From positions 1 to 21,820 of IMG/VR virus record IMGVR_UViG_3300013094_000314: a DNA stretch of 21,820 nucleotides; one strand, given 5' to 3'. This DNA comes from a virus. Shown here in pieces: positions 4,621 to 21,820 of this stretch. Both the position numbers and the translations under genes were made by a program. The notes beneath the pieces were generated by a model. That model worked only from the letters and a program-made list of their open reading frames with translations, searched no databases and had not been told where the DNA came from. The first letter of the stretch is position 1. The number at the start of each line of letters is the position of its first letter.

Positions 4621-4629
4621 AATTTTTCC

Positions 4630-5421: not shown

Positions 5422-5423
5422 AT

Positions 5424-5780
5424 TTAATCCTTTCTACTAATTAAGATTTCTTCTGCTTTTGCAGAATCTATTTCATTGGTTGCATGAATACAGAACCAAA
5501 CAGAATCTTCTAAAGCTTCTATTTGATGATATGTTTCAGCTTTTATTTTGATACAAGCAGGAGCACAATAAACATGATTATAATCATCGGTCTTAACAAT
5601 TACACTACCTTTCGCCAATATACTTAAATGCGAAAAATTATGTTTATGCTGGCAAGCGATAAATCCTTTAGGAATTACCATTTGCTTGGAATATAGACCA
5701 TCAGAAAAATAATGTACTGTTTGAGGGTCAACATCAAACCGACCTTCATTTTGTTTAAAAATTTCAGCTAAATTAGACAT
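5424..5780 (-). CDS. Cupin-fold protein, function unknown
   Basis: A small single-domain cupin of 118 residues using the ATG at 5780; an upstream in-frame start at 5813 would add 11 residues but overlaps the previous gene more deeply. Motif 1 fits G(X)5HXH(X)3-4E(X)6G: Gly39, His45, His47 and Gly58 are in place, but the usual Glu is His51 (KHNFSH). A motif-2 histidine is His85 in TYHQIEAL. The metal site could therefore be all-histidine. Cupins of this kind occur in phage tail/ejection gene blocks, but their role is not known to me; candidates are a virion component or a small-molecule/metal-binding enzyme. The start overlaps the stop of the 80-residue gene by 8 bases, and the stop is 2 bases before the gp7-like start, so the gene belongs to the late operon. 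Confidence 0.75.
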   Translation of the reverse strand: MSNLAEIFKQNEGRFDVDPQTVHYFSDGLYSKQMVIPKGFIACQHKHNFSHLSILAKGSVIVKTDDYNHVYCAPACIKIKAETYHQIEALEDSVWFCIHATNEIDSAKAEEILISRKD

Positions 5781-6015
5781 TGTAATAAGGCACTTTGTAA
5801 GGTTTACCACCAACAGTTACATTTATAAACCCTGCTGGAGCTGCAGGCAAAACTGCTGCGCCTTTAGTCGCTGTCGGAGCAGAAGTAAAATTTAACAAAT
5901 TTAAAAACCATTGCTGCCAAGCTCTAGTTGGCATTTGTGTTTGAGAATCTACTAACGGAGTAACTGGGTAAGGGTTAGTCTGCTCCGTTCCCCAAATAAT
6001 GTTAGGGTTTGCCAT
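5773..6015 (-). CDS. Small conserved-looking phage protein (80 residues), function unknown
   Basis: The ATG overlaps the TAA of the gp10-like gene by one base (TAATG), so translation is probably coupled. The protein is 80 residues with a Trp-rich, partly helical segment at about 33-43 (WQQWFLNLLNF), an Ala/Pro linker, and a C-terminal strand-like end GGKPYKVPYYN. It occupies the place where P22 has its tail needle (gp26) and gp14, but it is much shorter than gp26 and lacks a visible trimeric coiled coil. It may be a small virion component or a remnant. I do not recognise a named family. Confidence in coding is high because of the tight coupling on both sides. Confidence 0.7.
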   Translation of the reverse strand: MANPNIIWGTEQTNPYPVTPLVDSQTQMPTRAWQQWFLNLLNFTSAPTATKGAAVLPAAPAGFINVTVGGKPYKVPYYNV

Positions 6016-8141
6016 TAGTTTTCCCCTTCCGATGCTTTAAGGTTAGCAGAAACAATAACTGCTTTTATTGGGTCAGTTACTACAACTTCAAAGATTCTAT
6101 CTCTAGACCAACCCAATCTGCGCCAAATAATACGAGTTTGGTAAGTTCCTATATCGCCAATGCTTGCCCAATGCTCGTTAGACCATGTAGAACCTCCATC
6201 ATTACTCCAGCGAAGCATCGCTTGAGGGTTAGCCCCAACTGTCTCTCCGTTTAACGGTGTGGTCGTTCCTGTAAGCCCAACTCCAGGCTGAAATTGAATC
6301 TGTAATTCGTCAAAATACTGTCTTTGTAAATCGGTTACTAAATGCGGAGCTCTACGAACCCTTCTAATAGTGCCACCATTGTCAGTGTAATTTTGCGAAT
6401 CTAACTGATAAATTTGACCATTTTGCCAATCGCCAACCAAAACGATATTTTGGAATACACAGGCGCAATTAGAACGATGACGATGGAATACATTGTTATT
6501 GTCAACCCAAAGCCATTTATGCCATAGTTGAGTAGTAAGGTCAAAAGCCCAAGTTAAATCAAGCGTAGGAAAAGAAACAACATAAACCTCATGCCCTTCT
6601 AGCTGGTAAGTGTAAGCAACTGCATCTTCAATGTATTGGTCTACTAAAGTATTTTCTACCGCATGAGTAGATATTCTTTGTGGAAAATATCCGTTCATCA
6701 ATACAATTTCAGCTTGACCTCGATTGTTTTTAGATACATAAGCAAAGGAATTTCCAGCTCTAGCTACTGAAAACGGTGCTGCGATACCATGCTGGCTTGA
6801 AGAAGCTGGAATACGCTGAAAAGCGAAAGGGAATGTTCCCACATCAGCCCATACCTCGCTAGTGGTTTCCCCTAATAAATAGACTTGACCGTGGTCGCAA
6901 ATTAAAGATACAAGGTTATCAGGTCCTGTAAATTTGCTTGCGTAGCTTAAACCATAAGTAATTGGACTAAGAATATTAGAAGCAGCCCATTGCTGTGTAT
7001 TTGGGTCGTTGTAAACAAAATAATTGTCCACAACATCGACAATCGTACCGCCTGTAAAAGCTCCGTCTGTATTAGGAATAACAGTCCAATTTAAAGCGTA
7101 CATCGTTTCCGATGTTACTGTTTGACTATTATTGATTACATAGTTTCCTGTACCGCCAGAACCTGAACCGAAAGTCAAAGTTAAGGTTAAGCCTGTGCCT
7201 GAACCAGTTGTAGATGTAGAAACTGGATTGCTAGGATTAGAAGTGTACGCACCAGCATAAGTAGGGGTTAAGCCTGTAACTACACCGCTAGTTACACTAG
7301 TAACGGTATAAGTCGCTGGGCTATTGCCATAAACACCGCCTAAAACCGTTACTGTATCGTTTACAGCGTAGCCTGTACCGCCTGTGGCAATAGATTCGCT
7401 AAGTACCGTTCCCTGTCCAAGCGCAGTAATAATTGTGTCAGACTGAACGTTTGCGCCTGTAATTGTTTGTCCAGGATACAAAACTTGACTTGTGCCGATA
7501 GCAGTAACAGTTAAGGTCGCTCCTGACATTGAAGCTGTTATAGTCGCTGCCACATTAGCAGAATTCATAACTTCTGCCGTAGCAATAGAAGCCGACTGGC
7601 TTAAAGTCCAAGTGCTGCCTGAACCTGAAACAATAACTGTTTCTTGCGGAATTCCGATTCCAAATAAAGCTTGATTTGCAGCAATAGTTCCGCTAATTAC
7701 TCTCGTTACAGTAAGAGTTGTTCCTGATACGGTTGCTTGAAAAATAGCAGAATTAGGATTAGAAATTCTCCATGTATAACGATATTGACCATCTACGATA
7801 TAGACATTTAAACCATTATCGGTAATGCCTACAATTCCTGAACTTGTATTAAGCTGACCAATAATAGTTGGGGTAAAGCTAGAATTTAAAACATATACAT
7901 ACGAGCCGCATACAGCGACCATGTAATTGCCACCACTTAAAGTACGCATTCCACGCACTTCGGATTGTGCTGACAAAGCAACAATAGAAGTAAGACCTGG
8001 GGTTGGATAAAGCGCAACTACACCTCTAGAGCCTTGTGGCTTAGTAGGGTCTACTTCAGGAAACCAATTAATGCATTCCTGTGCATCTTGATAAATAGAT
8101 GGGGCTTCGTAAGAGGCTCCAACAAAGCCAAAATCTGCCAT
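6015..8141 (-). CDS. P22 gp10-like packaged-DNA stabilization / tail hub protein with large insertion
   Basis: A 708-residue tail accessory factor, predicted to bind below the gp4-like adaptor and close the portal channel after packaging. The N-terminus has the gp10 pattern (ECINWFPEVDP, ALYPTPGL, GNYMVAVCGSYVYVL at about 72-86). The C-terminus has the gp10-like end WSNEHWASIGDIGTYQTRI and RRLGWSRDRIFEVVVTDPI, comparable to the end of P22 gp10. P22 gp10 is about 472 residues. The excess of roughly 236 matches a Gly/Thr/Ser-rich inserted region at about residues 132-352, built from repeated beta modules. After the insert the WD-like beta scaffold resumes (DVVDNYFVYNDP, ICDHGQVYLLGETTSEVWAD). 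The start is 2 bases after the gp4-like stop. The hub assignment is confident; the role of the insert is unknown. Confidence 0.9.
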   Translation of the reverse strand: MADFGFVGASYEAPSIYQDAQECINWFPEVDPTKPQGSRGVVALYPTPGLTSIVALSAQSEVRGMRTLSGGNYMVAVCGSYVYVLNSSFTPTIIGQLNTSSGIVGITDNGLNVYIVDGQYRYTWRISNPNSAIFQATVSGTTLTVTRVISGTIAANQALFGIGIPQETVIVSGSGSTWTLSQSASIATAEVMNSANVAATITASMSGATLTVTAIGTSQVLYPGQTITGANVQSDTIITALGQGTVLSESIATGGTGYAVNDTVTVLGGVYGNSPATYTVTSVTSGVVTGLTPTYAGAYTSNPSNPVSTSTTGSGTGLTLTLTFGSGSGGTGNYVINNSQTVTSETMYALNWTVIPNTDGAFTGGTIVDVVDNYFVYNDPNTQQWAASNILSPITYGLSYASKFTGPDNLVSLICDHGQVYLLGETTSEVWADVGTFPFAFQRIPASSSQHGIAAPFSVARAGNSFAYVSKNNRGQAEIVLMNGYFPQRISTHAVENTLVDQYIEDAVAYTYQLEGHEVYVVSFPTLDLTWAFDLTTQLWHKWLWVDNNNVFHRHRSNCACVFQNIVLVGDWQNGQIYQLDSQNYTDNGGTIRRVRRAPHLVTDLQRQYFDELQIQFQPGVGLTGTTTPLNGETVGANPQAMLRWSNDGGSTWSNEHWASIGDIGTYQTRIIWRRLGWSRDRIFEVVVTDPIKAVIVSANLKASEGEN
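7092..7745 (-). repeat. Inserted beta modules in the gp10-like gene (two copies, one interrupted)
   Basis: Two copies of one protein module are visible. Copy A (about 7566-7745) begins VSGTTLTVTRVISGTI and ends STWTLSQSASIATAEV. Copy B (about 7092-7547) begins MSGATLTVTAIGTSQVLYPG and ends GTGNYVINNSQTVTSETMYA. Copy B is split near ITALGQGT by a different Gly-rich unit (about 7167-7403) with GGTGYAVNDTVTV and its own repeat-like strands. Both copies resemble the module in the upstream gp4-like gene. The match is at the protein level; I see no long exact DNA repeat. Copy boundaries are approximate. Confidence 0.6.
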
Positions 8142-9849: not shown

Positions 9850-12498
9850 CTATGTGTTTGCAAATACACCAGCAAATAATCTACTACCTGAAGCTGGGTT
9901 ATATCCTACCAATGTAGTTGTATATGTAGCAAATCCACAACCAGTTGTATTTTGACCATTGTTAGAATATGTAAATGTTCCTAATTGATTGCAATGTGAA
10001 TACATTGAATAATTTGCATTAGGCAAAGCGTTAATAAAGTTTAAGTAAAAAACTCCTGTTGCCGTATAAGTCATAGAACTTACATTGTAAGCGCCATTAA
10101 TTGTTGGAGTTCCACCAGTTGCTGTTGCTGCAACCCAAGCTTTTGCACCTTGTAAACCACCTTGCAAACCACAAGCAACAGTTCTCCAATACCCACCACC
10201 ATCACCAGCAAGTATTACTGTTTCACCTGGCTGCAATGTATTTTTAAAATCTGTTCCACCGAAAACTAAATTTACTGGATAAGTAGAAGGATTGCTTAAA
10301 TTAAAAGTATTTGCTGTGCTTGGAAAAGTAATAGTAATTGCAGCGGAAGGAATAAGCAGAATATTAGACCCAGCATAAGCGCTAGTTAATGTCATGCTTG
10401 TAGTAATTACTTGCTGACCTGAAGATTGAAGTCCAGGCAAAGATTCACTAACTGTTACTGCGCCAGTTGAACCTGATAATGTAATCCCACTTCCTGCAGT
10501 TAAAGAAGTAACAATCCCTGTTAAGGATGAACCTGAACCACTAAATGCAGTAGCAGTTAATGTGCCTGTAGAAGGAACAAAACTTAATTTAGTAGAAGAA
10601 GTTGTTTGTGGCAAATTACCAGTTGTTGTTGAAACAATGGTAGGGTACCAAGTTGCACTTGAACTTGTATTGTCTGTAATTGCAGTATTAGTTGCATTGG
10701 TTGCAGTTGTAGCAGTTGTAGCCGTACCAGCGCTTCCTGATATGTTGGCTGTAATTGTGCTAGCAAAAGTCCATGCTCCAGTGCTTCCGTTAATTGTTGC
10801 TGAATCGCTTGCTCCATTACCAACAACAAAATGTACTGCGTTTGCAGTATAAGAGCCTAAAACTAAATCACCGCTTGCACTGTATAAATAAGTTGCATTA
10901 GGCAACGAAAAAGAACCAGTACCAGTAAATCCTGATGAATTTATACCAAAATCACCATAATAAGTAGAAGCAGAGCCACTATTGCTGGAAACAATAAAGT
11001 CTGCAGAAGCAGCTGAACCAGAACTACTATTTTCCAAAATCATTTGTGCATAGCTATTTACAGAAGTTGTATAGCTTGCAAAAATATTCGTATCTGAATA
11101 ACTTAATGTTCCATAACTAAATGCGCCAGCAGAAGCAGAACCAGTAATTGCTCCTGTTGCTGTAAATGTTCCTGAAGATACAGATGTCGCTGTTGCTGCG
11201 CCTAAAGTTGGCGTTACAAAAGTTGGGCTTGTTGCTAAAGCGACTACAGTTCCGCTACCAGTAGTGCTATAAGAAGTTCCCCAAGCAGTGCCAGTGGAAT
11301 TAGCTATTCCTGCGCTAGGATAAACTTGGCTTGGTACGGTTGCGTTAATAGTAATAGCAGCAGAACCGTTATAAGTCGTTCCTGAACTAAAAGTTATATT
11401 TGTTCCTGCTGTTAAAGCTGCTAAATTACCGCCTAAAGATACTCCTGAAATCGTACTATTTGCTAATTGTGCGTTTGTAATTGTTCCGCTTAAAGCAGTC
11501 GTCGGAATAGTAGTAGAAGCTGTTTGCGCTCCTGTTCCGTTTGCATAAACATACCCAGTAATTGTTCCTGCAACACCAGTACCACCATAAGAAGCTCCAA
11601 TTACACCAGCATTCCATGTGCCTGCTGTAACCGTACCCAATCCAGTAATACCAGTATAAGAACCACTTAACAAACTAGAAGCGATAGTGCCAGCAGTAAT
11701 TTGGCTTGCGTTAATAGCAATACTTGTATTTGTTGCGGAAGTAATTTGCCCTTCTAAATTTACCGCAATAACTGGTACTGTGGATGCAGAACCATAAGTC
11801 GCAGCCGATACACCAGTAGCTGTAATGCTAAATACATAACCAGTAAGGGTTAAGCCAGTGCCAGCAGAGTAATTTGTTGCAACGCTAAAATTACTCCAAT
11901 TCATTGCCGTTGTACCAAGCGTACCACCTGGTTGTGCAGTGCAATACCAAGCCGAACCAGCTTGGCCACCATATTCCACAAACACTAATGCGCTAACATA
12001 TTGCGCCCAAGTAGTGCAGCCTGTTGCGTAAGTCCAAGCACCGCTAGAAACCGTATAAATACCGTTTTGAGCTGCGTTCGTTTGGTTTTTTACCAGTACT
12101 GTATTACCAGCAACAAGGTTTACTGAATCAACCGTTTGAAGCCCTGAAAGGGTAATGTTTACTGTCGTTGCTGCTGTTACAGGATTTTTCCAGCTAATTC
12201 CAGCAGCATAGGACTGAAGTGTTAATAAATTAACAATATCAGTAGCACTAGAGGCATTTGTGCTAATGGTTCCAGTTACTGTTGAAATGCTTGTAAAATT
12301 GCCAGTTGAAGGTGTGGTTGCCCCAATAGTTGTGCTGTCAATCGTACTGTTTGTAATATGCAAACCAGTTTGAATGGGGCTAATTGATGCGTAAAACGGC
12401 TGACCTTGTCCAATAAAAGTTTGAAAATTACCGTAAACATCAAAATAAGCCTGAACAGGCAGTAGATTTTGGTCTACTGTTGAATTGGGAGCACCCAT
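9850..12498 (-). CDS. Large tail fibre protein
   Basis: An 882-residue Ser/Thr/Gly/Ala-rich fibre, the largest protein here. Residues 1-45 carry a short anchor-like segment (QNLLPVQAYFDVYGNF, GQGQPFYASI) shared with the neighbouring 158-residue protein. Residues about 100-205 match a widespread phage fibre module: WKNPVTAATTVNITLSGL, VLVKNQTNAAQNGIYTVSSG, GSAWYCT. Residues about 210-380 hold fibre repeats with GTVTAGTWNAGVIGASYGGTG. The middle contains YGDFGINSSGF and a second beta module. The end (785-882) begins AKAWVAATATGG and includes YNVSSMTYTATGVFYLNF, a known fibre-tip domain type. No intramolecular chaperone (S74-like) is seen at the C-terminus. A Shine-Dalgarno AAGGA in AAGGATTAAAT precedes the ATG. 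It is probably a second receptor-binding appendage beside the collar fibre. Confidence 0.85.
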   Translation of the reverse strand: MGAPNSTVDQNLLPVQAYFDVYGNFQTFIGQGQPFYASISPIQTGLHITNSTIDSTTIGATTPSTGNFTSISTVTGTISTNASSATDIVNLLTLQSYAAGISWKNPVTAATTVNITLSGLQTVDSVNLVAGNTVLVKNQTNAAQNGIYTVSSGAWTYATGCTTWAQYVSALVFVEYGGQAGSAWYCTAQPGGTLGTTAMNWSNFSVATNYSAGTGLTLTGYVFSITATGVSAATYGSASTVPVIAVNLEGQITSATNTSIAINASQITAGTIASSLLSGSYTGITGLGTVTAGTWNAGVIGASYGGTGVAGTITGYVYANGTGAQTASTTIPTTALSGTITNAQLANSTISGVSLGGNLAALTAGTNITFSSGTTYNGSAAITINATVPSQVYPSAGIANSTGTAWGTSYSTTGSGTVVALATSPTFVTPTLGAATATSVSSGTFTATGAITGSASAGAFSYGTLSYSDTNIFASYTTSVNSYAQMILENSSSGSAASADFIVSSNSGSASTYYGDFGINSSGFTGTGSFSLPNATYLYSASGDLVLGSYTANAVHFVVGNGASDSATINGSTGAWTFASTITANISGSAGTATTATTATNATNTAITDNTSSSATWYPTIVSTTTGNLPQTTSSTKLSFVPSTGTLTATAFSGSGSSLTGIVTSLTAGSGITLSGSTGAVTVSESLPGLQSSGQQVITTSMTLTSAYAGSNILLIPSAAITITFPSTANTFNLSNPSTYPVNLVFGGTDFKNTLQPGETVILAGDGGGYWRTVACGLQGGLQGAKAWVAATATGGTPTINGAYNVSSMTYTATGVFYLNFINALPNANYSMYSHCNQLGTFTYSNNGQNTTGCGFATYTTTLVGYNPASGSRLFAGVFANT

Positions 12499-12507
12499 AT
12501 TTAATCC

Positions 12508-12984
12508 TTAAAATGCCATTGCCATTACAAGAACCATATCACCAGCAGTCATAGGCGAGGCAGTTCCAGTTGTAATGCCAAAACTGGTCAATGATGCTGA
12601 AGTAGTAGAGCTTCCTGATTGTTGCAAAAACAATGTATTTGCGCCAGTAATATCCCAAGCTTGAAGAACCCAACCAGTACTAGATGCTGGAAAGTTAATA
12701 GTCCCACCAGAAGAACCGCCAGTTCCCACAATAATTTTAAAAGCCGAAGTATTACTAGCTGTGATTGTTGCTCCTGTACCCCAACCAGTTCCCAATGTAG
12801 GAAGCTGATTAGAAATACATAAACAACCGCCAACAGATAAACTTTGCAAATTCATAGGAGGCACTAAAGGCTGTCCTGCTTGCCCATACAAACCTAAACA
12901 AGTTTCATTCCCAGTAGAAGCATATTCAGCCTGAACTGGCAATAAATTTGTAGAAGTAGTTGAAGCTACTTGATTAGAGGACAT
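12508..12984 (-). CDS. Short appendage-type virion protein sharing the fibre's N-terminal motif
   Basis: A 158-residue Ser/Gly/Thr-rich protein. The N-terminus (TSTNLLPVQAEYASTGN, then GQAGQPLVPP) resembles that of the 882-residue fibre just downstream, suggesting both attach to the virion through the same site or partner. The rest is a beta-rich domain of about 100 residues (GTGWGTGATITASNTSAFKI, FPASSTGWVLQAWDITGANT). The end, PMTAGDMVLVMAMAF, is unusually hydrophobic. The start codon shares one base with the stop of the 111-residue gene (TAATG). It may be a short fibre, an adaptor or a decoration protein; no function can be assigned. Confidence 0.65.
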   Translation of the reverse strand: MSSNQVASTTSTNLLPVQAEYASTGNETCLGLYGQAGQPLVPPMNLQSLSVGGCLCISNQLPTLGTGWGTGATITASNTSAFKIIVGTGGSSGGTINFPASSTGWVLQAWDITGANTLFLQQSGSSTTSASLTSFGITTGTASPMTAGDMVLVMAMAF

Positions 12985-13319
12985 TATGAAATCCCTTCAC
13001 CTGGGGTAATTTCTACTGAAGTTGCTGCGCTAGCTATAAACCAAGCATTCGGTGGAATAGAACTAAATACACCAACACCATTAGCAGGAATTGCCAAGAC
13101 ATTCATTACAGGAGCACCAGCAGAAGGAGCAGTAGCCACAGGAGTTACTGTTGCATCATTAGGCTCTTGCGGAGCCCAACCTACATGAACCAAGCTGCTT
13201 GTAAGGTTCACAATGCGATAGCCTGAAGGATATACATTATTAGCTGCCTTAACTTGAACAGCGGATGTTCCTACTTGATATGTTGCACCAAAAGGTGCGA
13301 ATGCTGAGTTATAAGCCAT
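12984..13319 (-). CDS. Small beta-rich putative virion protein (111 residues)
   Basis: The protein starts MAYNSAFAPFGATYQVG and has alternating strand-like segments: YRIVNLTSSLVHVGWAPQ at about 34-51, LAIPANGVGVFSSIPPNAWF at about 75-94 and EITPGEG at the end. This layout (RivN...vgW...f...TpGeG) recalls small phage structural proteins of unknown fold encoded near capsid and tail genes. No signal peptide or transmembrane helix is seen. It has a strong Shine-Dalgarno AAGGAG in TCTAAGGAGTAAAAA before the ATG at 13319. It lies 10 bases after the 107-residue gene and is coupled to the next gene. Its role is not known. Confidence 0.65.
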   Translation of the reverse strand: MAYNSAFAPFGATYQVGTSAVQVKAANNVYPSGYRIVNLTSSLVHVGWAPQEPNDATVTPVATAPSAGAPVMNVLAIPANGVGVFSSIPPNAWFIASAATSVEITPGEGIS

Positions 13320-13329
13320 TTTTTACTCC

Positions 13330-13653
13330 TTAGACTGAGCTAGTAGGCAAAGGCAAATTTTCAGGCTTAATAACTTTAAGGTAATAAACACCAGCAACAG
13401 TAACAGCAGATGCGCCAGTAGCGTTTACAAAGTCCAAAGCGATTGTATTTGCAGCTGTTACTCGAGCATTAACGCAAGCAACACCTTTAGTTTGAGCAAA
13501 ACCAGTAGAGACAAGCACTACATTACCAACCTGAACATCAGGAACAGTAATAGTTACTTCATCAGAAGAATCAGCGATAGTGGTCGAAGCTAGGGTGTAT
13601 TGAATGACTGTGGAAGATAAAATATTTCCACGAGCAATAGTAGTAGATGACAT
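13330..13653 (-). CDS. Small beta-rich putative virion protein (107 residues)
   Basis: This is the first gene after the second terminator. The sequence is almost wholly strand-like: TVPDVQVGNVVLVSTGFAQT at about 36-55, GVACVNARVTAANTIALDFV at about 57-76, then AVTVAGVYYLKVIKP. The pattern 'vGd.V.vs... Gv...arVtaant...fvN.T' is one I associate with small phage structural proteins. No enzyme motif is visible. AAAGGA in TTCAAAGGAAAAACT is the Shine-Dalgarno before the ATG at 13653. It may be a decoration, head-tail or fibre-base protein. Transcription must read through two terminators or begin in the short gap upstream, where I see no convincing promoter. Confidence 0.65.
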   Translation of the reverse strand: MSSTTIARGNILSSTVIQYTLASTTIADSSDEVTITVPDVQVGNVVLVSTGFAQTKGVACVNARVTAANTIALDFVNATGASAVTVAGVYYLKVIKPENLPLPTSSV

Positions 13654-13696
13654 AGTTTTTCCTTTGAATAAGGTAAATCAATTATATGGTATTCAA

Positions 13697-13733
13697 GAAA
13701 AAAAGCCACACTTTTTGGGCATGGCTTTTTTCT
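13697..13733 (-). terminator. Intrinsic terminator after the 146-residue gene
   Basis: A perfect 10 bp stem (13699-13708 with 13722-13731) encloses a 13-base loop. Read on the minus strand it is AAAAAAGCCA, loop, TGGCTTTTTT, extended by one more T. The U-tract lies within the 3' arm. It begins 18 bases after the stop codon of the 146-residue gene and 44 bases before the next start. Because both arms are A/T-tracted, it could also act in the other direction, but no plus-strand gene needs it. Confidence 0.75.
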
Positions 13734-13750
13734 TTTTACTTCATTTGTTT

Positions 13751-14191
13751 TTAGCTAAAGTCGTAACCGTAGATGTAAGCATCTACAGTGCCGACTGCGC
13801 CTGCTGCTGTACCAACATAAGCATACAGAGTTTGAGCTGAGAAAGCCAAAGTGCTTTCATAAGCTGTCGCTACTGTTGTGCCTAGCAAAGCTGTATTGTT
13901 GGTCAAAGTAGTCAAAGCAAAAACTTCAGTACCACTGCCACCTGAACCACCTGGGGCTGTGTAAACAGAAATAACAGCAGAGCTAAGGTTAGCAACTGCG
14001 CCTGCGTTGTTCGCATTAGTAAAAATAATCGAAGTAGGCAAGTAGTTATTGGTGTTGTTTACTGGAATTGCAGTAGAAGCTACTGAATTAGCATTAATCC
14101 CTTTTACAACTGCCAACAAACGCAATGCTTGGTCAGTTGTTACATTTGAGGGATGTGCCGATGTGGTTACTGCTGGTCCTGGATTACTCAT
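13751..14191 (-). CDS. Putative capsid-associated (decoration-type) protein, 146 residues
   Basis: The protein follows the coat gene and is enclosed by two intrinsic terminators. It is Ala/Thr/Asn-rich: an N-terminal helical part (TTDQALRLLAVVKGINANSV, about 18-37), then strand-like segments (YLPTSIIFTNANNAG; LSSAVISVYTAPGGSGGSG; LAFSAQTLYAYVGTAAG) ending YIYGYDFS. No known enzyme motif is present. Location, small size, beta content and probable high transcription fit a head decoration or other abundant virion protein, but homology was not testable here. AAGGA in TTTAAGGAATAAAATC supports the ATG at 14191. Confidence 0.7.
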   Translation of the reverse strand: MSNPGPAVTTSAHPSNVTTDQALRLLAVVKGINANSVASTAIPVNNTNNYLPTSIIFTNANNAGAVANLSSAVISVYTAPGGSGGSGTEVFALTTLTNNTALLGTTVATAYESTLAFSAQTLYAYVGTAAGAVGTVDAYIYGYDFS

Positions 14192-14219
14192 GATTTTATT
14201 CCTTAAATATGTTTAAAAA

Positions 14220-14239
14220 GCAGGGGTTTTACCCCCTGC
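14220..14239 (-). terminator. Intrinsic terminator directly after the coat gene
   Basis: On the minus strand, GCAGGGG and CCCCTGC form a perfect 7 bp GC-rich stem with a 6-base loop (GTAAAA), followed at once by TTTTT (14219-14215). It starts 5 bases after the coat stop codon. It would end part of the transcripts after coat, or stabilise the 3' end of a coat message. Confidence 0.8.
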
Positions 14240-14244
14240 GATTA

Positions 14245-15519
14245 TTAGGCTGCTACTCGGCAAGCCAACTCTGGGTAGAGTGGAGCCCAACCGTAGAGAA
14301 CATCCACACGAGTAGGAATCGAATCGTTGTTAATGGTGTATTGGCGAACCACACGCATTGACAGACCAATTTCCTTATCGCTAGCACGACCAGCGAAGTG
14401 AACACCCTCTGGCAACTCAAGGTCAGCCATAGCCATTGTGTAAGCATTACGATGCATAACAATGTTTTGTGGGGACACTACACCGTTGCCGCTTGCGTTG
14501 TACTGACTTGCGAAGAAAGTTACAGCTGCAGAGCTAGATGGGTTAGGAATTGACACATTCTGGAACTGACCGCCATAAATAACAGCAGGAGATACAGTAA
14601 CAGAAACGCTTGAACCTGAAGCAACAGAAACAGCAGACTTCACTACGAATGAACGCAGTTTGTTTGTGCCGTATGCTTGACGGTTTTGTGGATTAACTGC
14701 ATACACACCAGCGATTTGGAATGTATCACCAGCGTTCAAGTTGATTGTGCCAGTGTTAGCAGCAGTCAAAGTGATTGTAGAAGTCTGTGCCCAACCGCTA
14801 TTTAAGAAACCAGTAGCAGTAGAGGTGTTTACAGAAGCAGTAACAGTAGCAGTAGAGAAATTACCAAAAGTTTGGGACACAATGTTCTGATCAAGTTTCC
14901 AGTTCATACCGCCTGAATCACGACCCATCAAGCCTTTTTCGTATTGCATACCGATTTTGTCGTTAGGAACGAAAAGACCTTTTAAGCTGTCAACGATAGT
15001 TGCAGATGTAAATGGCTCAACGATACATGAACGACGACCATCACGAGGTGCGCCTTCAGAATCAAGGTAAGCCTGTGCTGACAAGTATGTATACAAGCCA
15101 GTTGGAGGTGTACCAGCTGTACCAACGATGTTCGCTGTGTTCAAAGCTGCAGTTGTAGTACCGTCAAAGTCAATTTTGTTGGCGATAGCTGCTACTGCTG
15201 GCTTCAAGATACGGTCAGAGAACATATCCAAGCTCAATGCCAAATCCTGTGTAGTGAATTGAGTATCCACATGGAATTGCGTGGAAAGAGTCACTGGAAC
15301 GCTAGTCTCGTTCAAGTCTTCCACATTGAGGGCTGGTCCTGTTGTACCAATAAAACGACCTGGGCGACGGACATTGACGGTTGCGCCAATTTTTGCACCA
15401 ACTACAGCGAACTGGTCGTCATAGTTACGGTCAACTTCAGATGTAAATGTTAATTCGTTTTCGAGAACCATCAACGCTTCGTTGGTGATTTTCGAGATAG
15501 TCAATAAAGTATTGCTCAT
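14245..15519 (-). CDS. P22-like major coat protein (HK97 fold)
   Basis: A 424-residue capsid protein, close in length to P22 gp5 (430). The N-terminus shows the family pattern MSNTLLTISKITNEALMVLE, then NELTFTSEVDRNYDDQF and GATVNVRRPGRF (about 46-57). Next comes the STQFHVDTQFTTQDLALSLD region (about 79-98), equivalent to the conserved N-arm/E-loop region of P22-type coats. A Thr/Ser-rich middle (about 220-300) probably corresponds to the inserted domain. The C-terminus continues the fold through NIVMHRNAYTMAMADLELPE and YGWAPLYPELACRVAA. GGAG in TTTTGGAGAATTACA precedes the ATG. It follows the scaffold gene, as in P22, and is followed by a terminator. The DNA looks less AT-rich here than in the ejection genes, as expected for a highly expressed gene. 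Confidence 0.95.
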   Translation of the reverse strand: MSNTLLTISKITNEALMVLENELTFTSEVDRNYDDQFAVVGAKIGATVNVRRPGRFIGTTGPALNVEDLNETSVPVTLSTQFHVDTQFTTQDLALSLDMFSDRILKPAVAAIANKIDFDGTTTAALNTANIVGTAGTPPTGLYTYLSAQAYLDSEGAPRDGRRSCIVEPFTSATIVDSLKGLFVPNDKIGMQYEKGLMGRDSGGMNWKLDQNIVSQTFGNFSTATVTASVNTSTATGFLNSGWAQTSTITLTAANTGTINLNAGDTFQIAGVYAVNPQNRQAYGTNKLRSFVVKSAVSVASGSSVSVTVSPAVIYGGQFQNVSIPNPSSSAAVTFFASQYNASGNGVVSPQNIVMHRNAYTMAMADLELPEGVHFAGRASDKEIGLSMRVVRQYTINNDSIPTRVDVLYGWAPLYPELACRVAA

Positions 15520-15543
15520 TGTAATTCTCCAAAAAAATTAGGT

Positions 15544-16440
15544 TTATCTAAGCTTACCTGACCGTCTAGCTTCTCGATACTGAGCAGGAGTTCCTAAGAA
15601 TTCACCATTGGTGTCTACTAGGACATCTGCGCCAGCACGACCACTAGATAATGGTCTGATAGGTTCAGGTGCTTTACTTCTAGAAACAATATTGCTTACT
15701 GTTGTTGTCTTTTGAGGGACTTCAAACTTCGCCTCAAGTTTGCCTAATTCTTTAAGAGCTTTAATCACTGGCATTTCTGACAGCTTTCTAGCAAAGTCTT
15801 CATCGGATGCAAGCGCATATAAGATTTGTGGTCCCACATCACTTTCAAGAATGCTGTCTCGTATTTCAGGTCTAACTGGCACCTTACTAGACGGCACTAC
15901 ATCATCCCAGTCGTCATATTCGGCTTTGGCTTTTTCAAGCTTTTTCTCCCAAGATTCTTGAGATTTTCGAATAGATTCCTGCTGTTCCCTTTGCTTTAAG
16001 GCATTTTCCGCACTCCACCTTGCCAACTCTCTTGCATAATCAAAAGGGTCAGTAAAGTCTTGCGCTTGTGGTTCACCAACCGCAATAACAGGCTTTTGTT
16101 CCTGCTGTTGCTGAGGGTTTACCTTGCCCTCTAACTCTCTCAAACGATTTTCTAGTTCAGCAGCTTTGGCTTCAGCTTCCTGCGCCCTTTTGCTTACTTT
16201 TTCGAATCGTTTATTAAGCTTATCCTTCGGCTTTTCAGCTTCAAGTGCTTCTTTAGCTTCTTCCTCTGCTTCTGGTTCACTCTGTCCTTCAACTTGCGCT
16301 GGCTCTGAAGATTCCTTTACACCTTCAGCCTCAGGAGGCACATTGTTGTCAGCTAAACCTAATCTTTCTGCATAAAAGGTTGCTGCGTTATCACTTGTTA
16401 CTACACTACTTGCTACTTTTGCTTCTGATTCATTGGCCAT
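15544..16440 (-). CDS. Scaffolding protein
   Basis: A 298-residue, strongly charged and helical protein between portal and coat, close in length to P22 gp8 (303). The N-terminal third is acidic (Glu/Ala/Pro-rich, about 35-75). A long coiled-coil stretch follows at about 70-105 (KRFEKVSKRAQEAEAKAAEL, ENRLRELEGKV), and a Gln-rich linker, then a Lys/Glu-rich helical part (about 140-175). The end is basic (QYREARRSGKLR), matching the basic coat-binding tail known for P22 scaffold. No protease motif is visible, so scaffold release without cleavage is likely, as in P22. TAGGAG in CATTAGGAGCTTGAGAAATC is the Shine-Dalgarno. Assignment rests on position, length and composition. Confidence 0.85.
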   Translation of the reverse strand: MANESEAKVASSVVTSDNAATFYAERLGLADNNVPPEAEGVKESSEPAQVEGQSEPEAEEEAKEALEAEKPKDKLNKRFEKVSKRAQEAEAKAAELENRLRELEGKVNPQQQQEQKPVIAVGEPQAQDFTDPFDYARELARWSAENALKQREQQESIRKSQESWEKKLEKAKAEYDDWDDVVPSSKVPVRPEIRDSILESDVGPQILYALASDEDFARKLSEMPVIKALKELGKLEAKFEVPQKTTTVSNIVSRSKAPEPIRPLSSGRAGADVLVDTNGEFLGTPAQYREARRSGKLR

Positions 16441-16463
16441 GATTTCTCAAGCTCCTAATGGTT

Positions 16464-16492
16464 AAAATACTACTAAAAATAATTCTTGTCTA
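16464..16492 (-). promoter_or_regulatory. Candidate sigma-70-type promoter before scaffold and coat
   Basis: On the minus strand TAGACA (16492-16487) is separated by exactly 17 bases from TATTTT (16469-16464). This matches the -35 consensus at 5 of 6 positions and the -10 at 4 of 6. It lies in the only gap between the 60-residue gene and scaffold, and would give scaffold and coat extra transcription. The leader would be short, with the ribosome site near its 5' end. In AT-rich DNA such matches occur by chance, so this is weak. Confidence 0.25.
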
Positions 16493-16494
16493 TT

Positions 16495-16677
16495 TTATTC
16501 TTCTTCAGCTTCATCTTTCAATGCTGCTTTGATTAAAGCTTTTTGAGCTTTTAATTCTTCTTTGCTCATACCTTCGTATGGGTTTTTAGGTTCGTCAGGC
16601 TCATATTTACGACCAGCCCTGCGAGCCATTTCCTTTAATTTCCATTCATGTACATTATCACCTGTTACTGTTGGCAT
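16495..16677 (-). CDS. Small charged protein between portal and scaffold (60 residues), function unknown
   Basis: The protein begins MPTVTGDNVHEWKLKEMARR and is followed by AGRKYEPDEPKNPYEGMSKE and a short Lys/Glu/Ala helix ending EAEEE. It is wholly hydrophilic, with no signal or membrane segment. It has one of the best ribosome binding sites of the window, GGAGGA in AATCGGAGGAAAT, with suitable spacing to the ATG at 16677, and starts 11 bases after the portal stop. Both facts argue that it is real. It might assist portal or scaffold assembly, but that is only from position. Confidence 0.7.
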   Translation of the reverse strand: MPTVTGDNVHEWKLKEMARRAGRKYEPDEPKNPYEGMSKEELKAQKALIKAALKDEAEEE

Positions 16678-16688
16678 ATTTCCTCCGA

Positions 16689-18794
16689 TTAAATACCACG
16701 CTCAACTGCTTCTGCTTCTGCTTCTTTTAAATCTTTTTTGTCCATATTAGCCAAAATCAAAGCCAATTGGGCTTTTAACTGCTCTATTTCTAGCTGGGTT
16801 TGTGTCTTAATAACAGTGTCATGTGCTGTTGTATCGGTACGCAACTGACTATCTTCCCTGCGTACTTGTAAGCGCATTTTCTCACGCTCTGTTTCGGCTT
16901 GTTGTACTTGTTCTTGTACCGTAGCACGATATTTCTTATCCATTTGCTCAGCTTGTAATGCTTGCTGTAACTGCTGAATAGTAGCTTGACCTTGTTTAAT
17001 CATCATCTGTGCCTGTGGAGGAATAGGTGATTTATCGTCAATTTGTGCCAATGGGTTGGCTGCTGCTAATCGGTCAGCAATAATGTCAGCACCTGGGAAA
17101 TCCATATTTCTAAAAATTAAATCGCCAGCTTGTTGCATTAACGCAGGGTCAGCAGTTAACAAAGTCATCATAGAATCTACTGCTTCCTGACGCTTAGAAG
17201 AATAACCAGGTCCTGTTTCCATAACAATGTCATATTCACCGACAGTTACATCGTTTAATACGATATCGACACCGTTTTCGTCGGTGGATTTTTCGTTAAT
17301 TTTAACGAGCTCACCTTTACCGTCAGCCCCAATAATACGCAATACACGCTCTCTATCGTAAATATGCGGAATTAAATCTAAGCAAATACGACCAGTTTGG
17401 CGAATCGAACGAGTTAGATTGTCGTAATAGTGGAAATTAGTCATATCGGTTTGCTGCTGCATACCGTTAATGGCTTTTCCTGATTGATTTCCGTTTGGTA
17501 ACTGGCTTGGGTCATATATACCTACCACAGCCATAAGGTCAGCATTTAAGCCTTCTAATGCCGTAACCATGCCTGTGGGTGGAGGTTCAGGCTGTACTCG
17601 CTGTGGTACTGGCGCTGGTCTACCTTCGCTATCGGTTTGTTTGTAGCGCAATACAGGCATAGACTTAATGTTTGCCTGATTCCACTCCATTTCATGACCT
17701 TCGTCTTGACCTTCAGCAATAAGATACTTGGCTTTAGGAGCAAGGGCAACAGATTCAGTAAGCGCAGTAGACCAAAAGTTATACATACGCTGTGGGTCTT
17801 TAGCCATACGAGTAAGACCAAACTTTTTGCGTTTGCTGTCTACTATTAGCTGAGAGCCATAAACAGGCACAACTGGAATGTATTTACCAGCCCAGTCCCT
17901 AGATTCAAGGACTTGCATTCCGGTTAGCTTTACCCATTTAATCTGCTTTTTAATGGTTTCACGCTTGGAAACTACATAAATGCCAGCGTCTTGTAGCAGC
18001 GTTTCTTTTGGCTTATCTTCTTCATATATAGTAGAGCCATCGGAAAGCAATAGCAATTTAGTGCGCTTGCGTACTGTGTAGAAATATTCAGCAATACGAA
18101 TATCTTCTTTGGTAATCCATTCAGACTGACTATCGCCTGTGCCACGAGGATTAAAACCACCGCCATCGTCAGCACCTGGGTACATTCTGCGGAATGCTTC
18201 TTTGCTAATTACTTCGGTAATTAAGCATTTTTCAGCGTCTGACCCATCAGGCTCGGTAGAGTTGGGGTCAAAATACACCATAAATGGGTTTTCAATGCGC
18301 TTGATATACAGCTCTTGGTCAAACGACTTGGGATTTGGGTAATCATGGGTTACTCGCCAATATCCCCAGCCCATACGCACCGCAAACGAGAAAGCATTGT
18401 CATAAGCGGCATCGGCATCGGATTGGTTTTCAATATGGCGCAATATACCAGTTACCACTTCCGCTACTTTTTCATCACTCTCGGTATTCATACCATGAGC
18501 AACCATGCGAGGTCTTTGTTGTCTTTGTTGATTTTCTATTTGACGACAGTAAGCATCTACCTTGTTAATAGTCAAATAAGGGCGAGATTCTAACAGGCGA
18601 CTGTTTTGAATTTCTACTGGCCATTGGTCGCCACCAGCGAATTTTAAATCCTCTAGTGCTTCCTGACGGTTATTTGAATCGTTGTCGGAGCAGAATCGTA
18701 GAAAGTCTTTAGCTTCCTCAATTACCCCTGAATTATCGTCATCAGCATATTCTGTGGAGTATATTCCACCATTGCTTTCAACATTCATTACCAT
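16689..18794 (-). CDS. P22-like portal protein
   Basis: A 701-residue portal, near the length of P22 gp1 (725), forming the dodecameric DNA channel at one capsid vertex. Family-like features are FLRFCSDNDSNNRQEALEDL near the start, FAGGDQWP (about 48-55), RPYLTINKVDAYCRQIENQQ (about 66-85), and FAVRMGWGYWRVTHDYPNP (about 136-154). The conserved IENPFMVYFDPNSTEPDGSD follows (about 166-185). The C-terminal 100 residues are Gln/Glu-rich and strongly coiled-coil (QQLQQALQAEQMDKKYRATV and following), corresponding to the P22 barrel region. It ends EAEAEAVERGI. AGGAAA in CTAACAGGAAATCATT favours the first of two nearby ATGs (18794 rather than 18788). It follows the large terminase by 12 bases. Confidence 0.93.
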   Translation of the reverse strand: MVMNVESNGGIYSTEYADDDNSGVIEEAKDFLRFCSDNDSNNRQEALEDLKFAGGDQWPVEIQNSRLLESRPYLTINKVDAYCRQIENQQRQQRPRMVAHGMNTESDEKVAEVVTGILRHIENQSDADAAYDNAFSFAVRMGWGYWRVTHDYPNPKSFDQELYIKRIENPFMVYFDPNSTEPDGSDAEKCLITEVISKEAFRRMYPGADDGGGFNPRGTGDSQSEWITKEDIRIAEYFYTVRKRTKLLLLSDGSTIYEEDKPKETLLQDAGIYVVSKRETIKKQIKWVKLTGMQVLESRDWAGKYIPVVPVYGSQLIVDSKRKKFGLTRMAKDPQRMYNFWSTALTESVALAPKAKYLIAEGQDEGHEMEWNQANIKSMPVLRYKQTDSEGRPAPVPQRVQPEPPPTGMVTALEGLNADLMAVVGIYDPSQLPNGNQSGKAINGMQQQTDMTNFHYYDNLTRSIRQTGRICLDLIPHIYDRERVLRIIGADGKGELVKINEKSTDENGVDIVLNDVTVGEYDIVMETGPGYSSKRQEAVDSMMTLLTADPALMQQAGDLIFRNMDFPGADIIADRLAAANPLAQIDDKSPIPPQAQMMIKQGQATIQQLQQALQAEQMDKKYRATVQEQVQQAETEREKMRLQVRREDSQLRTDTTAHDTVIKTQTQLEIEQLKAQLALILANMDKKDLKEAEAEAVERGI

Positions 18795-18806
18795 AATGAT
18801 TTCCTG

Positions 18807-20096
18807 TTAGCTCATCCAACTTGATACATGATATTCCATTGGCTTTCTTTTCGCCACTTTCTTTTCCTGAATCATTAGCCCAATATACCTAAAAGCATCA
18901 GCTCCATGTGAATATTGGTCATGTAAAGGAGTTTTGCTAAAAGCTTTTGTATCAGGGTCTACATCGTATCTGTAATGCCGTAAGCAATTTAATCCTGCTT
19001 CGGTATTGGTTTTATCAAAATAACAACTGGAGAAAATAGTCCTAGCAGCGTTAATAGAATCTGCAATAGGGGTGCGTTCAATAATTTTTACATTGTAGCC
19101 TGATGCTCTAACGATTTCTTCAATGCTTCGACCATTACTAGCTAAAGTTCTATTTTGAGCATCATGCGGCAAGTAAAGTGTATCGTATACATAACCAAAA
19201 GTCTGCATTTTCGCTAATATTTCGCTAATAACCGTTTGATTCACTTCCATGTATCGGAGTAATCTAGTCTCCATTCCTACGAATTGAACAAACCACACCG
19301 CAGTACTGTCAGCCCAACCAATATCAAATACTGCATGTACAGGCTTAATAGCGTCGTAAGGCACATTACAAATCCTGCCGTCTTGCTCTGCTCTGCTCAT
19401 TTCTTTAGCAAAAATAGCACCGTCAATAGTGCTTCGAGTAAAACCTTCCCACACATTCTGATAAGCTTCGAAGTCTCTATTCTTTAAAGATTGTCGTTCT
19501 ACATCAAGGACTTCAGGAAACCAAGGATTGTCTGACCAGTTTACTTTTTGAACAATAGCATTGTCAGGTGGGCTAATAACGAATCGCTTGTATGTCTCAT
19601 CAGATGGCAATTCAGGGTTAAAAGTAACCCAAATTTCACTGTTTTCTTTACGGATAGTAGGGATAAGAATGTCCCAGCTGTTTGCAGTCACGTTGTTTGC
19701 TTCCTCGACCCAGCAGTAATCTATGCCTTCTAAAGACTTTAAACCGTTAATGTTGTTCTTAATACCAGCGAAAATGAATTCAGTCTTGTTGTTTACCCCT
19801 CTAATAGAGCTATTGGTAATCTGGTAATACTTTTGCAGCCCCAAATTACCTATTTGGTCTACTAATAGCTTATGGACTGAATCTTTAATAGAGTTTTGGA
19901 ACTCACGAGCACATAGCACTCGGATAGTCTTTTGGAATCCCATGCATAGTAAAGCTCTAGCCACCGAATGGGATTTAGCAGCTCCTCGCCCACCGTATAA
20001 AACACGATAGCGAATGCTTTTAGGCTCAAATAAGCATCTTAGTTTGTTAGGAAACGCAGGCCATATAAAGCCTTGGTCATCAAGTCTTGTTTCCAT
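18807..20096 (-). CDS. Terminase large subunit
   Basis: A 429-residue packaging motor with ATPase and nuclease domains. Walker A is GGRGAAKS at 35-42; Walker B with catalytic Glu is YCWVEEA at about 127-133; the coupling motif is WVTFNPE at about 156-162. The RNase H-like nuclease acidic residues are probably Asp258 (AVFDIGWADS), Asp312 (LPHDAQNR) and Asp400 (HGADAFRY). The sequence is of the PBSX/phage terminase-6 style; all key residues are present, so it should be functional. It overlaps the small terminase gene by 17 bases and leads to the portal gene, the usual head-gene order. Whether packaging is headful (pac) or cos cannot be read from this window. Confidence 0.95.
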   Translation of the reverse strand: METRLDDQGFIWPAFPNKLRCLFEPKSIRYRVLYGGRGAAKSHSVARALLCMGFQKTIRVLCAREFQNSIKDSVHKLLVDQIGNLGLQKYYQITNSSIRGVNNKTEFIFAGIKNNINGLKSLEGIDYCWVEEANNVTANSWDILIPTIRKENSEIWVTFNPELPSDETYKRFVISPPDNAIVQKVNWSDNPWFPEVLDVERQSLKNRDFEAYQNVWEGFTRSTIDGAIFAKEMSRAEQDGRICNVPYDAIKPVHAVFDIGWADSTAVWFVQFVGMETRLLRYMEVNQTVISEILAKMQTFGYVYDTLYLPHDAQNRTLASNGRSIEEIVRASGYNVKIIERTPIADSINAARTIFSSCYFDKTNTEAGLNCLRHYRYDVDPDTKAFSKTPLHDQYSHGADAFRYIGLMIQEKKVAKRKPMEYHVSSWMS

Positions 20097-20433
20097 CAGC
20101 CTCTACCAATAGGATATTGATGCCTTTGACATCCTGTCCTTCACCAAGAGCATGCTCTGTTACGGTAGTTTCTTTCCAATTTGCCCTAGTTTTTAACCAA
20201 AAAATAGCAGCCGAGGTGTTTCCATTCTTAGCTTGCTGAAACAAAGTGTTTCCTATGCTGGCATTAGCATCTATGCGCCCATCTTCAAGCTCTTGCTTGT
20301 AATGTTTGCGTAAAGTTTCATCGTTAATACCCAGTTTATGCGCTATGTCTACATAACGAATGCCTACTGCGCTTAAACTTTTAACAAGTAATCTTGTTTT
20401 ATCGTCAGGAATATGTTCTTTGCCCTGTGCCAT
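20080..20433 (-). CDS. Terminase small subunit (HTH DNA-binding)
   Basis: A 117-residue protein directly before the large subunit. The N-terminal part (about 10-45) holds a homeodomain-like helix-turn-helix, LLVKSLSAVGIRYVDIAHKL then GINDETLRKHYKQEL, which would recognise the packaging start site. A central helix (IGNTLFQQAKNGNTSAAIFW, about 60-79) and KTRANWKE follow, a common pattern in this terminase class for oligomerisation. The C-terminal tail is short and acidic/polar, and may contact the large subunit. Only a weak Shine-Dalgarno-like stretch is seen before the ATG at 20433. It starts 19 bases after the oxygenase gene. Confidence 0.85.
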   Translation of the reverse strand: MAQGKEHIPDDKTRLLVKSLSAVGIRYVDIAHKLGINDETLRKHYKQELEDGRIDANASIGNTLFQQAKNGNTSAAIFWLKTRANWKETTVTEHALGEGQDVKGINILLVEADGNKT

Positions 20434-20452
20434 TTCTTTATAAGTCCCAAAG

Positions 20453-21253
20453 TTACCAGCAATTATTAAATGCTTTTAGTGGATAAAAGATTAAACTGTT
20501 TCTGTATCCTTCTGATTTTAAAGGAATAATTGGTGTTACACCATGTATGTTCATCCAAGCTGGGTAAACAATCATGCTGTTGTCTGATGAATCCAGCACT
20601 GCTCCGTAGTCTGGAATACTGAGGTTGCCGCCTTTAGCATGGCTTCTCTTGTTAATGATGACATTCGAACATCCTTCAAGATTTGCTGCATCTCTATGGT
20701 AGCTAGCAGCGATGTTGAAGTTGCTAATGCTGCTTGTAAATAGTTTTCCAAATCTCCATTTGGGAGGGACTTTTTCAGTAATAATTTGTAATTGCTTTTC
20801 ATATAACTCAGGTGCCAATTCTTTAATTGTTTCTTCTGCTTCATTACAAGCCAGCAGCATGGCTTTTATAAATGTTTTTGCGCTTTTTACCTCATGTACC
20901 ATAGCCATTCTTGGGTAAGGTAATCTCATGTGGGGTTTGGGAGCGCAGCTTCCGATAATCGTACTTAGCTGTTGTACTGGTTTTATTCCGCTTTTAGCCT
21001 GTTCTTCTTTCCATTTATTAGAGCCAACAGGACCTCTATTCATTAGATCTTTCGGCACTCTATCGCTTAAAAATTCAGCATTAGCGATGTCTATGTACTT
21101 ATTAAGCTTTTCAGGCATCTTTTTAAGATAAAACCCTATGACTTCGCCATTAACAGTAAAAAAAGTGTCTTCGGTAATGTTTGGCTCTAAATCTCCACAT
21201 ACATCGCCTACTTTGGTTTCGTTAGAAATTTTTACCAGTTCAATAGTTTTCAT
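20453..21253 (-). CDS. 2-oxoglutarate/Fe(II)-dependent dioxygenase, TET/JBP-like
   Basis: I choose the ATG at 21253 (266 residues), which forms an ATGA overlap with the preceding gene; an upstream in-frame start at 21310 would overlap by about 60 bases. The C-terminal domain carries the iron-binding set: His186 and Asp188 in SYHRDAANL and His237 in NIHGVTPI. The 2-oxoglutarate-binding Arg is probably Arg251 in YRNSLIFYP. Between them is KGGNLSIPDYG (about 208-217), a GG-L-x-x-P-x-x-G pattern typical of TET/JBP-like proteins, which oxidise 5-methylcytosine or thymine in DNA. The N-terminal 110 residues have no motif I recognise. Activity on DNA is inferred. A protein or small-molecule hydroxylase is the alternative. 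The neighbouring glycosyltransferase-like gene favours base modification. Confidence 0.7.
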   Translation of the reverse strand: MKTIELVKISNETKVGDVCGDLEPNITEDTFFTVNGEVIGFYLKKMPEKLNKYIDIANAEFLSDRVPKDLMNRGPVGSNKWKEEQAKSGIKPVQQLSTIIGSCAPKPHMRLPYPRMAMVHEVKSAKTFIKAMLLACNEAEETIKELAPELYEKQLQIITEKVPPKWRFGKLFTSSISNFNIAASYHRDAANLEGCSNVIINKRSHAKGGNLSIPDYGAVLDSSDNSMIVYPAWMNIHGVTPIIPLKSEGYRNSLIFYPLKAFNNCW

Positions 21254-21820
21254 AGGGCTAATAGGTCTATTTCCGATTGTTTTTGAACGAAGTCTTTTTG
21301 TTGCTCCCAAATCCGTTTTCTTACTTCTTTAGGCTGATTAACAAAAACATCTATGTCTTGAGCTTGTTTTACTTTAGCGCACCAAAACAATCCTGCATTG
21401 CCTTCAGGCGCAATAACTGGAATACCAGCGTACAAAGCATGGTAAGCCCTGCCTGTTCTCCATCCGCTATCTTTATGTTTATCATCAAATACAGCTAAGC
21501 AAGCCCTATATTGTGCGTAAAAAGCTCTTCTTAGCCTTTGTTGAGGGTTTGGTATTACCGTACAGTCAAAATCAATCCATTCAGCTTCTTTGCCTGCTAT
21601 GTCTAGTTTATCGCTTTTTAAAAACTCTTTAAAATAATCTTTGCGACCACCAGCTCTACCGATATACACCGCTTTGGGTATCTTTCCTTCGTAAAAGTCA
21701 GCAAATGGCATTCCTGAATTCATAGGGTAATCCACTGCTTTTACTGTTTTTGGGGCTTTTAATATCTCTTTGGCTTTTAATGGGTTAGCTGCGTTTACCG
21801 CTAAAGTCCATCTTGACCAA
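21250..21820 (-). CDS. Probable glycosyltransferase (GT-B-like), 5'-truncated by the window edge
   Basis: The reading frame is open from base 21820 to a TGA at 21252-21250 (190 codons), so the true start lies outside; a GTG at 21735 is internal. Visible features fit the C-terminal half of a GT-B enzyme: KAVYIGRAGGRKDYFKEFL (a new-domain start with Gly-rich turn), then AFYAQYRACLAVFDDKHKD and GWRTGRAYHALYAGIPVIAP, which resembles the donor-binding helix pattern 'R..E al..G.pvi.p'. A charged helical end follows. It ends in a 4-base overlap with the oxygenase gene, implying coordinated synthesis. In a modification pathway it would add a sugar to the hydroxylated base. The fold assignment is by resemblance only, and an unrelated small-molecule or surface-sugar transferase is possible. 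Confidence 0.5.
   Translation of the reverse strand, partial: WSRWTLAVNAANPLKAKEILKAPKTVKAVDYPMNSGMPFADFYEGKIPKAVYIGRAGGRKDYFKEFLKSDKLDIAGKEAEWIDFDCTVIPNPQQRLRRAFYAQYRACLAVFDDKHKDSGWRTGRAYHALYAGIPVIAPEGNAGLFWCAKVKQAQDIDVFVNQPKEVRKRIWEQQKDFVQKQSEIDLLAL

Follow-up and report, generated by a model that had tools for sequence, protein, structure and literature searches.

A TET/JBP-type oxygenase and a BGT-like glycosyltransferase in a putative thymine hypermodification cassette of a P22-like freshwater phage

Two overlapping genes at the right end of the IMG/VR virus record IMGVR_UViG_3300013094_000314 raise the question of whether, and on which base, a freshwater phage hydroxylates and glycosylates its own DNA. 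The window analyzed here is this whole record, 21,820 bp in length. An earlier note on the same DNA read the two genes as an HxD...H...R oxygenase of the TET/JBP type that is translationally coupled to a GT-B-like glycosyltransferase (GT), described the phage as P22-like, and placed the methyltransferase that would supply a methylated base either to the right of the window or in the host. The P22-like description agrees with PHROG matches to coat, portal, and scaffold proteins. A second contig, L002, is 99.97% identical to the window (3 mismatches over 9,432 bp, window positions 12389-21820) and extends 4,396 bp past its right end, bringing the known DNA of this phage to about 26 kb, i.e., an incomplete genome (the records of relatives have 36-41 kb). 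Upstream of the two genes, L002 also carries what by eye is a GroES-like co-chaperonin gene (2274-2585), with similar ORFs in the related contigs L003 and L004, and L003 has a 173-aa ORF (884-1405) that by eye looks like another 2OG-Fe(II) oxygenase (H-x-D...H) and has no Pfam match. A contig from a betaproteobacterial metagenome-assembled genome (MAG; L091, CAIYZI010000316.1) carries a 98% identical oxygenase, a weak hint of the host. The features of the locus are listed in Table 1.

Table 1. Coordinates of the features at the right end of the window
Feature	Position in window	Strand	Basis or remark
TET/JBP-type Fe(II)/2-oxoglutarate oxygenase, 266 aa (gene 1)	20453..21253	-	PF12851; AlphaFold and Foldseek; invariant HxD, H, R
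GT-B glycosyltransferase, 3' part, 189 codons (gene 2)	21250..21819	-	open at contig end
ATGA stop/start overlap of glycosyltransferase and oxygenase (translational coupling)	21250..21253	-	read directly in sequence
Terminase small subunit	20080..20433	-	phrog_309, 62 bits; next gene downstream of oxygenase
Terminase large subunit	18807..20096	-	PF04466, 135 bits

The oxygenase and the glycosyltransferase

Gene 1 runs from an ATG at 21253 to a stop at 20453; the TTG at 21310 given as its start in the ORF list is not needed because homologues begin at the same ATG. In a search with Pfam profiles, Tet_JBP (PF12851) was the only domain found at cut-off in the 266-aa protein (42.3 bits against a cut-off of 34.9, E 5.8e-11), and no J-DNA-binding domain of the kind present in JBP1 was detected at cut-off; the protein also matches PHROG 6059 with 170 bits. 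An AlphaFold model built from a 52-sequence alignment (pLDDT 92.5) was compared with the PDB by Foldseek, and the first 22 matches were all to TET-family structures (TET2, CcTet, NgTET1, CMD1), followed by FTO and AlkB, with no JBP oxygenase structure among the matches. H186-x-D188, H237, and R251, the iron and 2OG residues, do not vary across the 57 aligned relatives. The motif recognized in the earlier note thus belongs to a TET/JBP enzyme, and a match to a prolyl or protein hydroxylase appeared neither in the profile search nor in the structure search. The label "queuine tRNA-ribosyltransferase" attached to this family (phrog_6059; NC_020847, NC_051582, and other RefSeq phages) looks like a misannotation, and the present reading, if right, would correct it in the many genes that carry it.

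Gene 2, cut by the end of the window, is complete in L002 (4037-4966, 309 aa), where its TTG start overlaps the stop of a ParB-domain gene (TTGA). Neither the window fragment nor the full 309-aa protein matched any Pfam family, including the TET-associated glycosyltransferase profile PF20691 (TAGT). PDB sequence searches with single proteins were uninformative, the full GT having no match. A structural model of the full protein (29 relatives aligned; pLDDT 90.8) folds as a GT-B enzyme, as the earlier note had supposed, and a non-glycosyltransferase fold did not appear; its top four PDB matches are structures of T4 DNA beta-glucosyltransferase (BGT; 1j39, 1bgu, 1qkj, and 1bgt) with TM 0.67-0.72 and E down to 1.9e-9 (best 1j39, TM 0.72), followed by Gtf3/GtfC. 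Comparison of profiles detected no sequence homology with T4 BGT (hhalign probability 0.6%), so that the relationship to BGT is one of structure only. All 29 aligned relatives of the GT keep D106, R175, R179, and R244, and alignment by eye places FINDD106PDLPF, YIGR175AGGR179, and TGR244AYHALYAG of the GT opposite FTD100IRLPF, GGSFR191SGQR195, and TLR269VWETMASD of BGT, respectively. D100, R191, R195, and R269 are positions with functional roles in BGT; BGT E272 corresponds to H247 in the GT. The model supports the prediction that gene 2 encodes a DNA-type, BGT-like glycosyltransferase.

The two genes do overlap by ATGA at 21253-21250, and a 4-base overlap of the oxygenase gene with its 5' neighbour occurs in 65 of 90 related loci (63 ATGA, 2 GTGA). 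The pair and its overlap are real. As a small correction to the earlier note, the oxygenase gene lies downstream of the GT gene and comes third in a ParB-GT-TET unit. The ParB-domain gene of L002 scores 25.0 bits against ParB_N, just below the cut-off of 26.3, which its homologues in L003 and L004 exceed. In four other loci (L099:2921, L100:1454, L119:1204, and L170:4001) the GT-B gene apparently starts at an ATT over the ParB stop (ATTAA); the next ATG, GTG, or TTG, about 200 bases downstream in L099, would drop conserved N-terminal residues.

The decorator gene between ParB and the oxygenase is interchangeable among relatives

When viral contigs were scanned with a profile, at least 583 relatives of the oxygenase appeared, of which 80 were kept, and gene neighbourhoods were examined in 94 loci. 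A ParB gene lies directly 5' of the oxygenase gene, or of the genes between them, in 77 of these 94, and in most of the 94 the oxygenase belongs to a cassette of the plan ParB - decorator - TET/JBP. The terminase small subunit gene marks the conserved place of the cassette ahead of the terminase pair, an order that is also found in L003, L004, and the cultured Prochlorococcus phages MED4-184 and MED4-117 (ParB-FkbM-TET-TerS-TerL). Among other cultured phages, Rhodococcus phage Tonitrus has the arrangement ParB-x-TET...ADDT-kinase and Arthrobacter phage Lilmac1015 has ParB...TET-GT-deacetylase. Many such operons are said to have been predicted in earlier literature, by Iyer in 2013, Lee in 2018 and 2022, and Burke in 2021.

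The slot between ParB and the oxygenase holds an FkbM O-methyltransferase in 17 loci, a TAGT-related GT family (c3) in 15-16, other PF20691 TAGT-like GTs in 7 (and in 3 more with extra genes), the BGT-like GT family in 5 (window included), and a second GT-B-like family in 3-4; PF20691 is related to c3 and to the slot families of L060, L078, and L092. In about 25 further loci the slot contains a P-loop kinase and ADDT (PF18724, amino acid:DNA transferase), mostly together with a GATase_6 amidotransferase; kinase and ADDT are missing from the cassette of the window and L002, where the slot holds the GT. Each of the loci examined showed at most one decorator class. Mapped onto the tree of the oxygenases, the label of the decorator requires a minimum of 17 changes when loci with a decorator are considered and 21 with all groups, and the window's own clade (n=7) already comprises three loci with the BGT-like GT, three with c3, and one with the kinase; oxygenases 78-80% identical to that of the window are accompanied by a different GT in L003 and by the kinase in L004.

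Further genes accompany the decorators in some loci. In L052, L054, and L060 (about 3800-6800), the genes that separate ParB from TET are NTP-transferase-like, HAD plus kinase-like, and TAGT, and these phages may make their own activated donor for some decoration. The GATase_6 gene (a class-II glutamine amidotransferase) found with ADDT and kinase in L023, L025, L039, L041-L043, L053, L055, L056, L061-L063, L069-L070, L074-L075, and L085 suggests that one step of this branch has an amine or amide as donor.

A similar linkage was seen from the side of the glycosyltransferase: of the 80 loci retrieved with the GT, 72 have a TET/JBP gene at most 2.2 kb away on the same strand, a count that does not represent independent events because many of these loci are closely related to each other. 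Most of the 72 belong to larger phages with a different Tet_JBP protein of about 430 aa (82.6 and 65.2 bits in the two tested) and without ParB. A small HAD-like gene stands beside the BGT-like GT in large phages (L131:4927-5376, L134:4924-5373, L172:4836-5423, and L015:5559-6008) and is absent from the window's cassette. Of 22 long records with the GT (several above 100 kb and reaching 160 kb), two, L172 and L173, carry a thymidylate synthase (TS)-family gene. They form a single lineage, in which the surroundings of the GT showed no TET gene (L173 is cut upstream). The order in L172 is GT - HAD-like - HMUDK_hel (PF18723, 5-hmdU DNA kinase helical domain, 91 bits) - TS-family, with a two-residue shift at the Asn/Asp position (dUMP vs dCMP type) in the TS-like protein; judged from these genes, the pathway of this lineage is of the hmdU kind. 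Taken together, the linkage in 72 of 80 loci and the order in L172 indicate that the GT accompanies the enzyme that produces the hydroxymethyl-pyrimidine, of whichever kind this is.

Thymine or 5-methylcytosine as the substrate

JBP1 and JBP2 make 5-hydroxymethyluracil (hmU) from thymine in place. Because the oxygenase clade alternates between ADDT/kinase and GTs, the common intermediate of these cassettes would most simply be hmU made from thymine in the same manner. ADDT and 5-hmdU kinases serve thymidine hypermodification, in which phosphorylation of 5hmdU in DNA precedes its substitution (PMC6449724), and a published account gives Tonitrus a putative five-gene system for thymidine hypermodification (PMC11955845). 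Thymine rather than 5-methylcytosine (5mC) therefore appears the more likely substrate, and gene 1 a predicted thymine-to-hydroxymethyluracil hydroxylase. The hypermodification pair of the earlier note stands as a TET/JBP oxygenase with a DNA-type GT, on the evidence of profiles and folds, but its cytosine route is not supported: PF00145 (C5-methyltransferase) is missing from the known DNA of this phage, and the gene neighbourhoods speak for thymine. Beyond the right end of the window, one of the two sources that the earlier note gave for a methyltransferase, L002 carries the ParB gene and no methyltransferase. A search of 10 records, with control genomes positive, gave no PF00145 match in the window, in L002, in the close relative L003 (a 36-kb record), in L004, or in six complete genomes of related phages. 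The same 10 records contain no TS-family hydroxymethylase, and a TS-type enzyme as the source of hmU in the window's phage was rejected, none having been found in its known DNA.

The best surviving alternative, although an unlikely one, is that a phage or host C5-methyltransferase generates 5mC, which the TET enzyme would oxidize to 5hmC for capping by the GT. Such a route would be consistent with the fold matches of the oxygenase, which are to 5mC-oxidizing TETs (no JBP oxygenase structure being among the matches), with the natural use of hmC by BGT, and with PF00145 genes in 2 of the 41 additional relatives searched and in the MAG with the nearest copy of the oxygenase (98% identical), where there are five PF00145 matches; host-made 5mC is a possible source if that MAG bin is the host, a phage contig in a MAG bin being weak evidence of this. 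Against it stand the absence of PF00145 from the 10 records above and from all 22 long GT-bearing records, the presence of 5-hmdU-pathway enzymes in related cassettes, and the sparseness that would be expected of 5mC deposited by host restriction-modification. One of the two PF00145-positive relatives is L090, where a small C5-methyltransferase-like gene (4420-5061) lies near ParB-TET in a locus without a decorator, and some members of the cassette family, L090 for example, could act on 5mC. With regard to the acceptor of the GT, T4 BGT makes base J from 5hmU oligonucleotides in vitro, which favours hmU as acceptor, but in double strands it uses 5hmU only when mispaired with G, which does not (PMC4111573); one would accordingly expect an enzyme specialized for hmU.

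A far less probable reading is that the oxygenase makes hydroxymethylated or further oxidized bases while the GT acts elsewhere, on a phage structural protein or a host glycan, the linkage of the two genes being positional. The GT has no sequence homology to characterized DNA glucosyltransferases, and the protein glycosyltransferases Gtf3/GtfC are its structural matches right after BGT; however, BGT is the top fold match, the gene lies near TET/JBP in 72 of 80 loci whose phage backgrounds differ, a further lineage has it close to a 5-hmdU kinase/TS-like pair, and its slot is shared with other DNA-decorating enzymes. Finally, that gene 1 encodes some other 2-oxoglutarate oxygenase and neighbours the GT by chance has a negligible probability, since HxD...H...R is common to the whole superfamily but a prolyl/protein hydroxylase is excluded, as far as sequence and fold go, by the Tet_JBP score above gathering and by 22 leading TET-family fold matches, and the linkage of the oxygenase to ParB and decorators is conserved.

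Proposed pathway and comparison with known systems

We consider it likely that the phage converts thymine in situ to hmU and then to glycosylated, base-J-like hmU by means of a TET/JBP oxygenase and a BGT-like GT. Genes 1 and 2 would be the last two genes of a three-gene hypermodification cassette that precedes the terminase genes. After replication, the oxygenase would hydroxylate the methyl group of thymine in phage DNA to yield hmU; as thymine would be oxidized in the DNA itself, neither a methyltransferase nor a modified nucleotide pool would be needed. The GT would then move a sugar from a nucleotide-sugar onto the hydroxyl of hmU to give a base-J-like O-glycosyl-hmU. The ParB protein is probably a DNA-binding partner that targets the cassette enzymes or helps them, and the sugar may shield phage DNA from host nucleases. 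A broader and more tentative proposal, to which we give somewhat less than even weight, is that a true base-J-type nucleotide, glycosylated hmU, arises in situ in small aquatic phages of the P22-like kind, convergently with kinetoplastids, and that the GT is one plug-in among repeatedly exchanged decorators (sugar, O-methyl, amino acid, or other) on the same hmU handle.

If correct, base-J-like DNA would exist outside eukaryotes, one oxygenase backbone would serve, in aquatic phages that are abundant, a whole set of thymine decorations that can replace each other, and these cassettes would represent a natural enzyme set for differently capped hydroxymethyluracil. Exchange of decorators is the expected outcome of an arms race with both modification-dependent and ordinary restriction. 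As of 2019, no glucosylated 5hmdU had been reported in phages (PMC6449724).

Among known systems, kinetoplastid base J synthesis (JBP1/JBP2 and JGT) likewise uses a TET/JBP oxygenase and a separate GT, there without a methyltransferase, a gene that the search of the window and L002 did not find either, and the product predicted here is likewise a glycosyl-hmU; the phage system differs in its ParB partner, in a short 266-aa oxygenase without extra domains, and in its BGT-like GT-B enzyme, whereas the kinetoplastid JGT is GT-A-like. Tonitrus and CaiB, with predicted actinophage ParB-TET-ADDT-kinase cassettes, resemble the window's phage in the kind of ParB and TET/JBP genes that precede their terminase. 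In characterized thymidine hypermodification (ViI, M6, phiW-14), 5hmdU enters DNA through a modified nucleotide pool, whereas in situ formation by the oxygenase is proposed here, and ADDT and kinase occur in sister cassettes of the oxygenase clade, the window having a GT instead. Phage systems that combine TET, 5mC, and glycosyltransferases, reportedly described by Burke et al. in 2021, share a TET/JBP oxygenase with an adjacent GT, but the window lacks a C5-methyltransferase and its GT is BGT-like rather than a PF20691 TAGT. T4 BGT, an hmC-DNA glucosyltransferase, has the same fold as the GT (TM 0.72), with the invariant Asp and Arg residues equivalently placed; the two differ in that they have no detectable sequence homology, in the replacement of E272 by His, and in their partner enzyme, which is a TET/JBP oxygenase here instead of dCMP hydroxymethylase.
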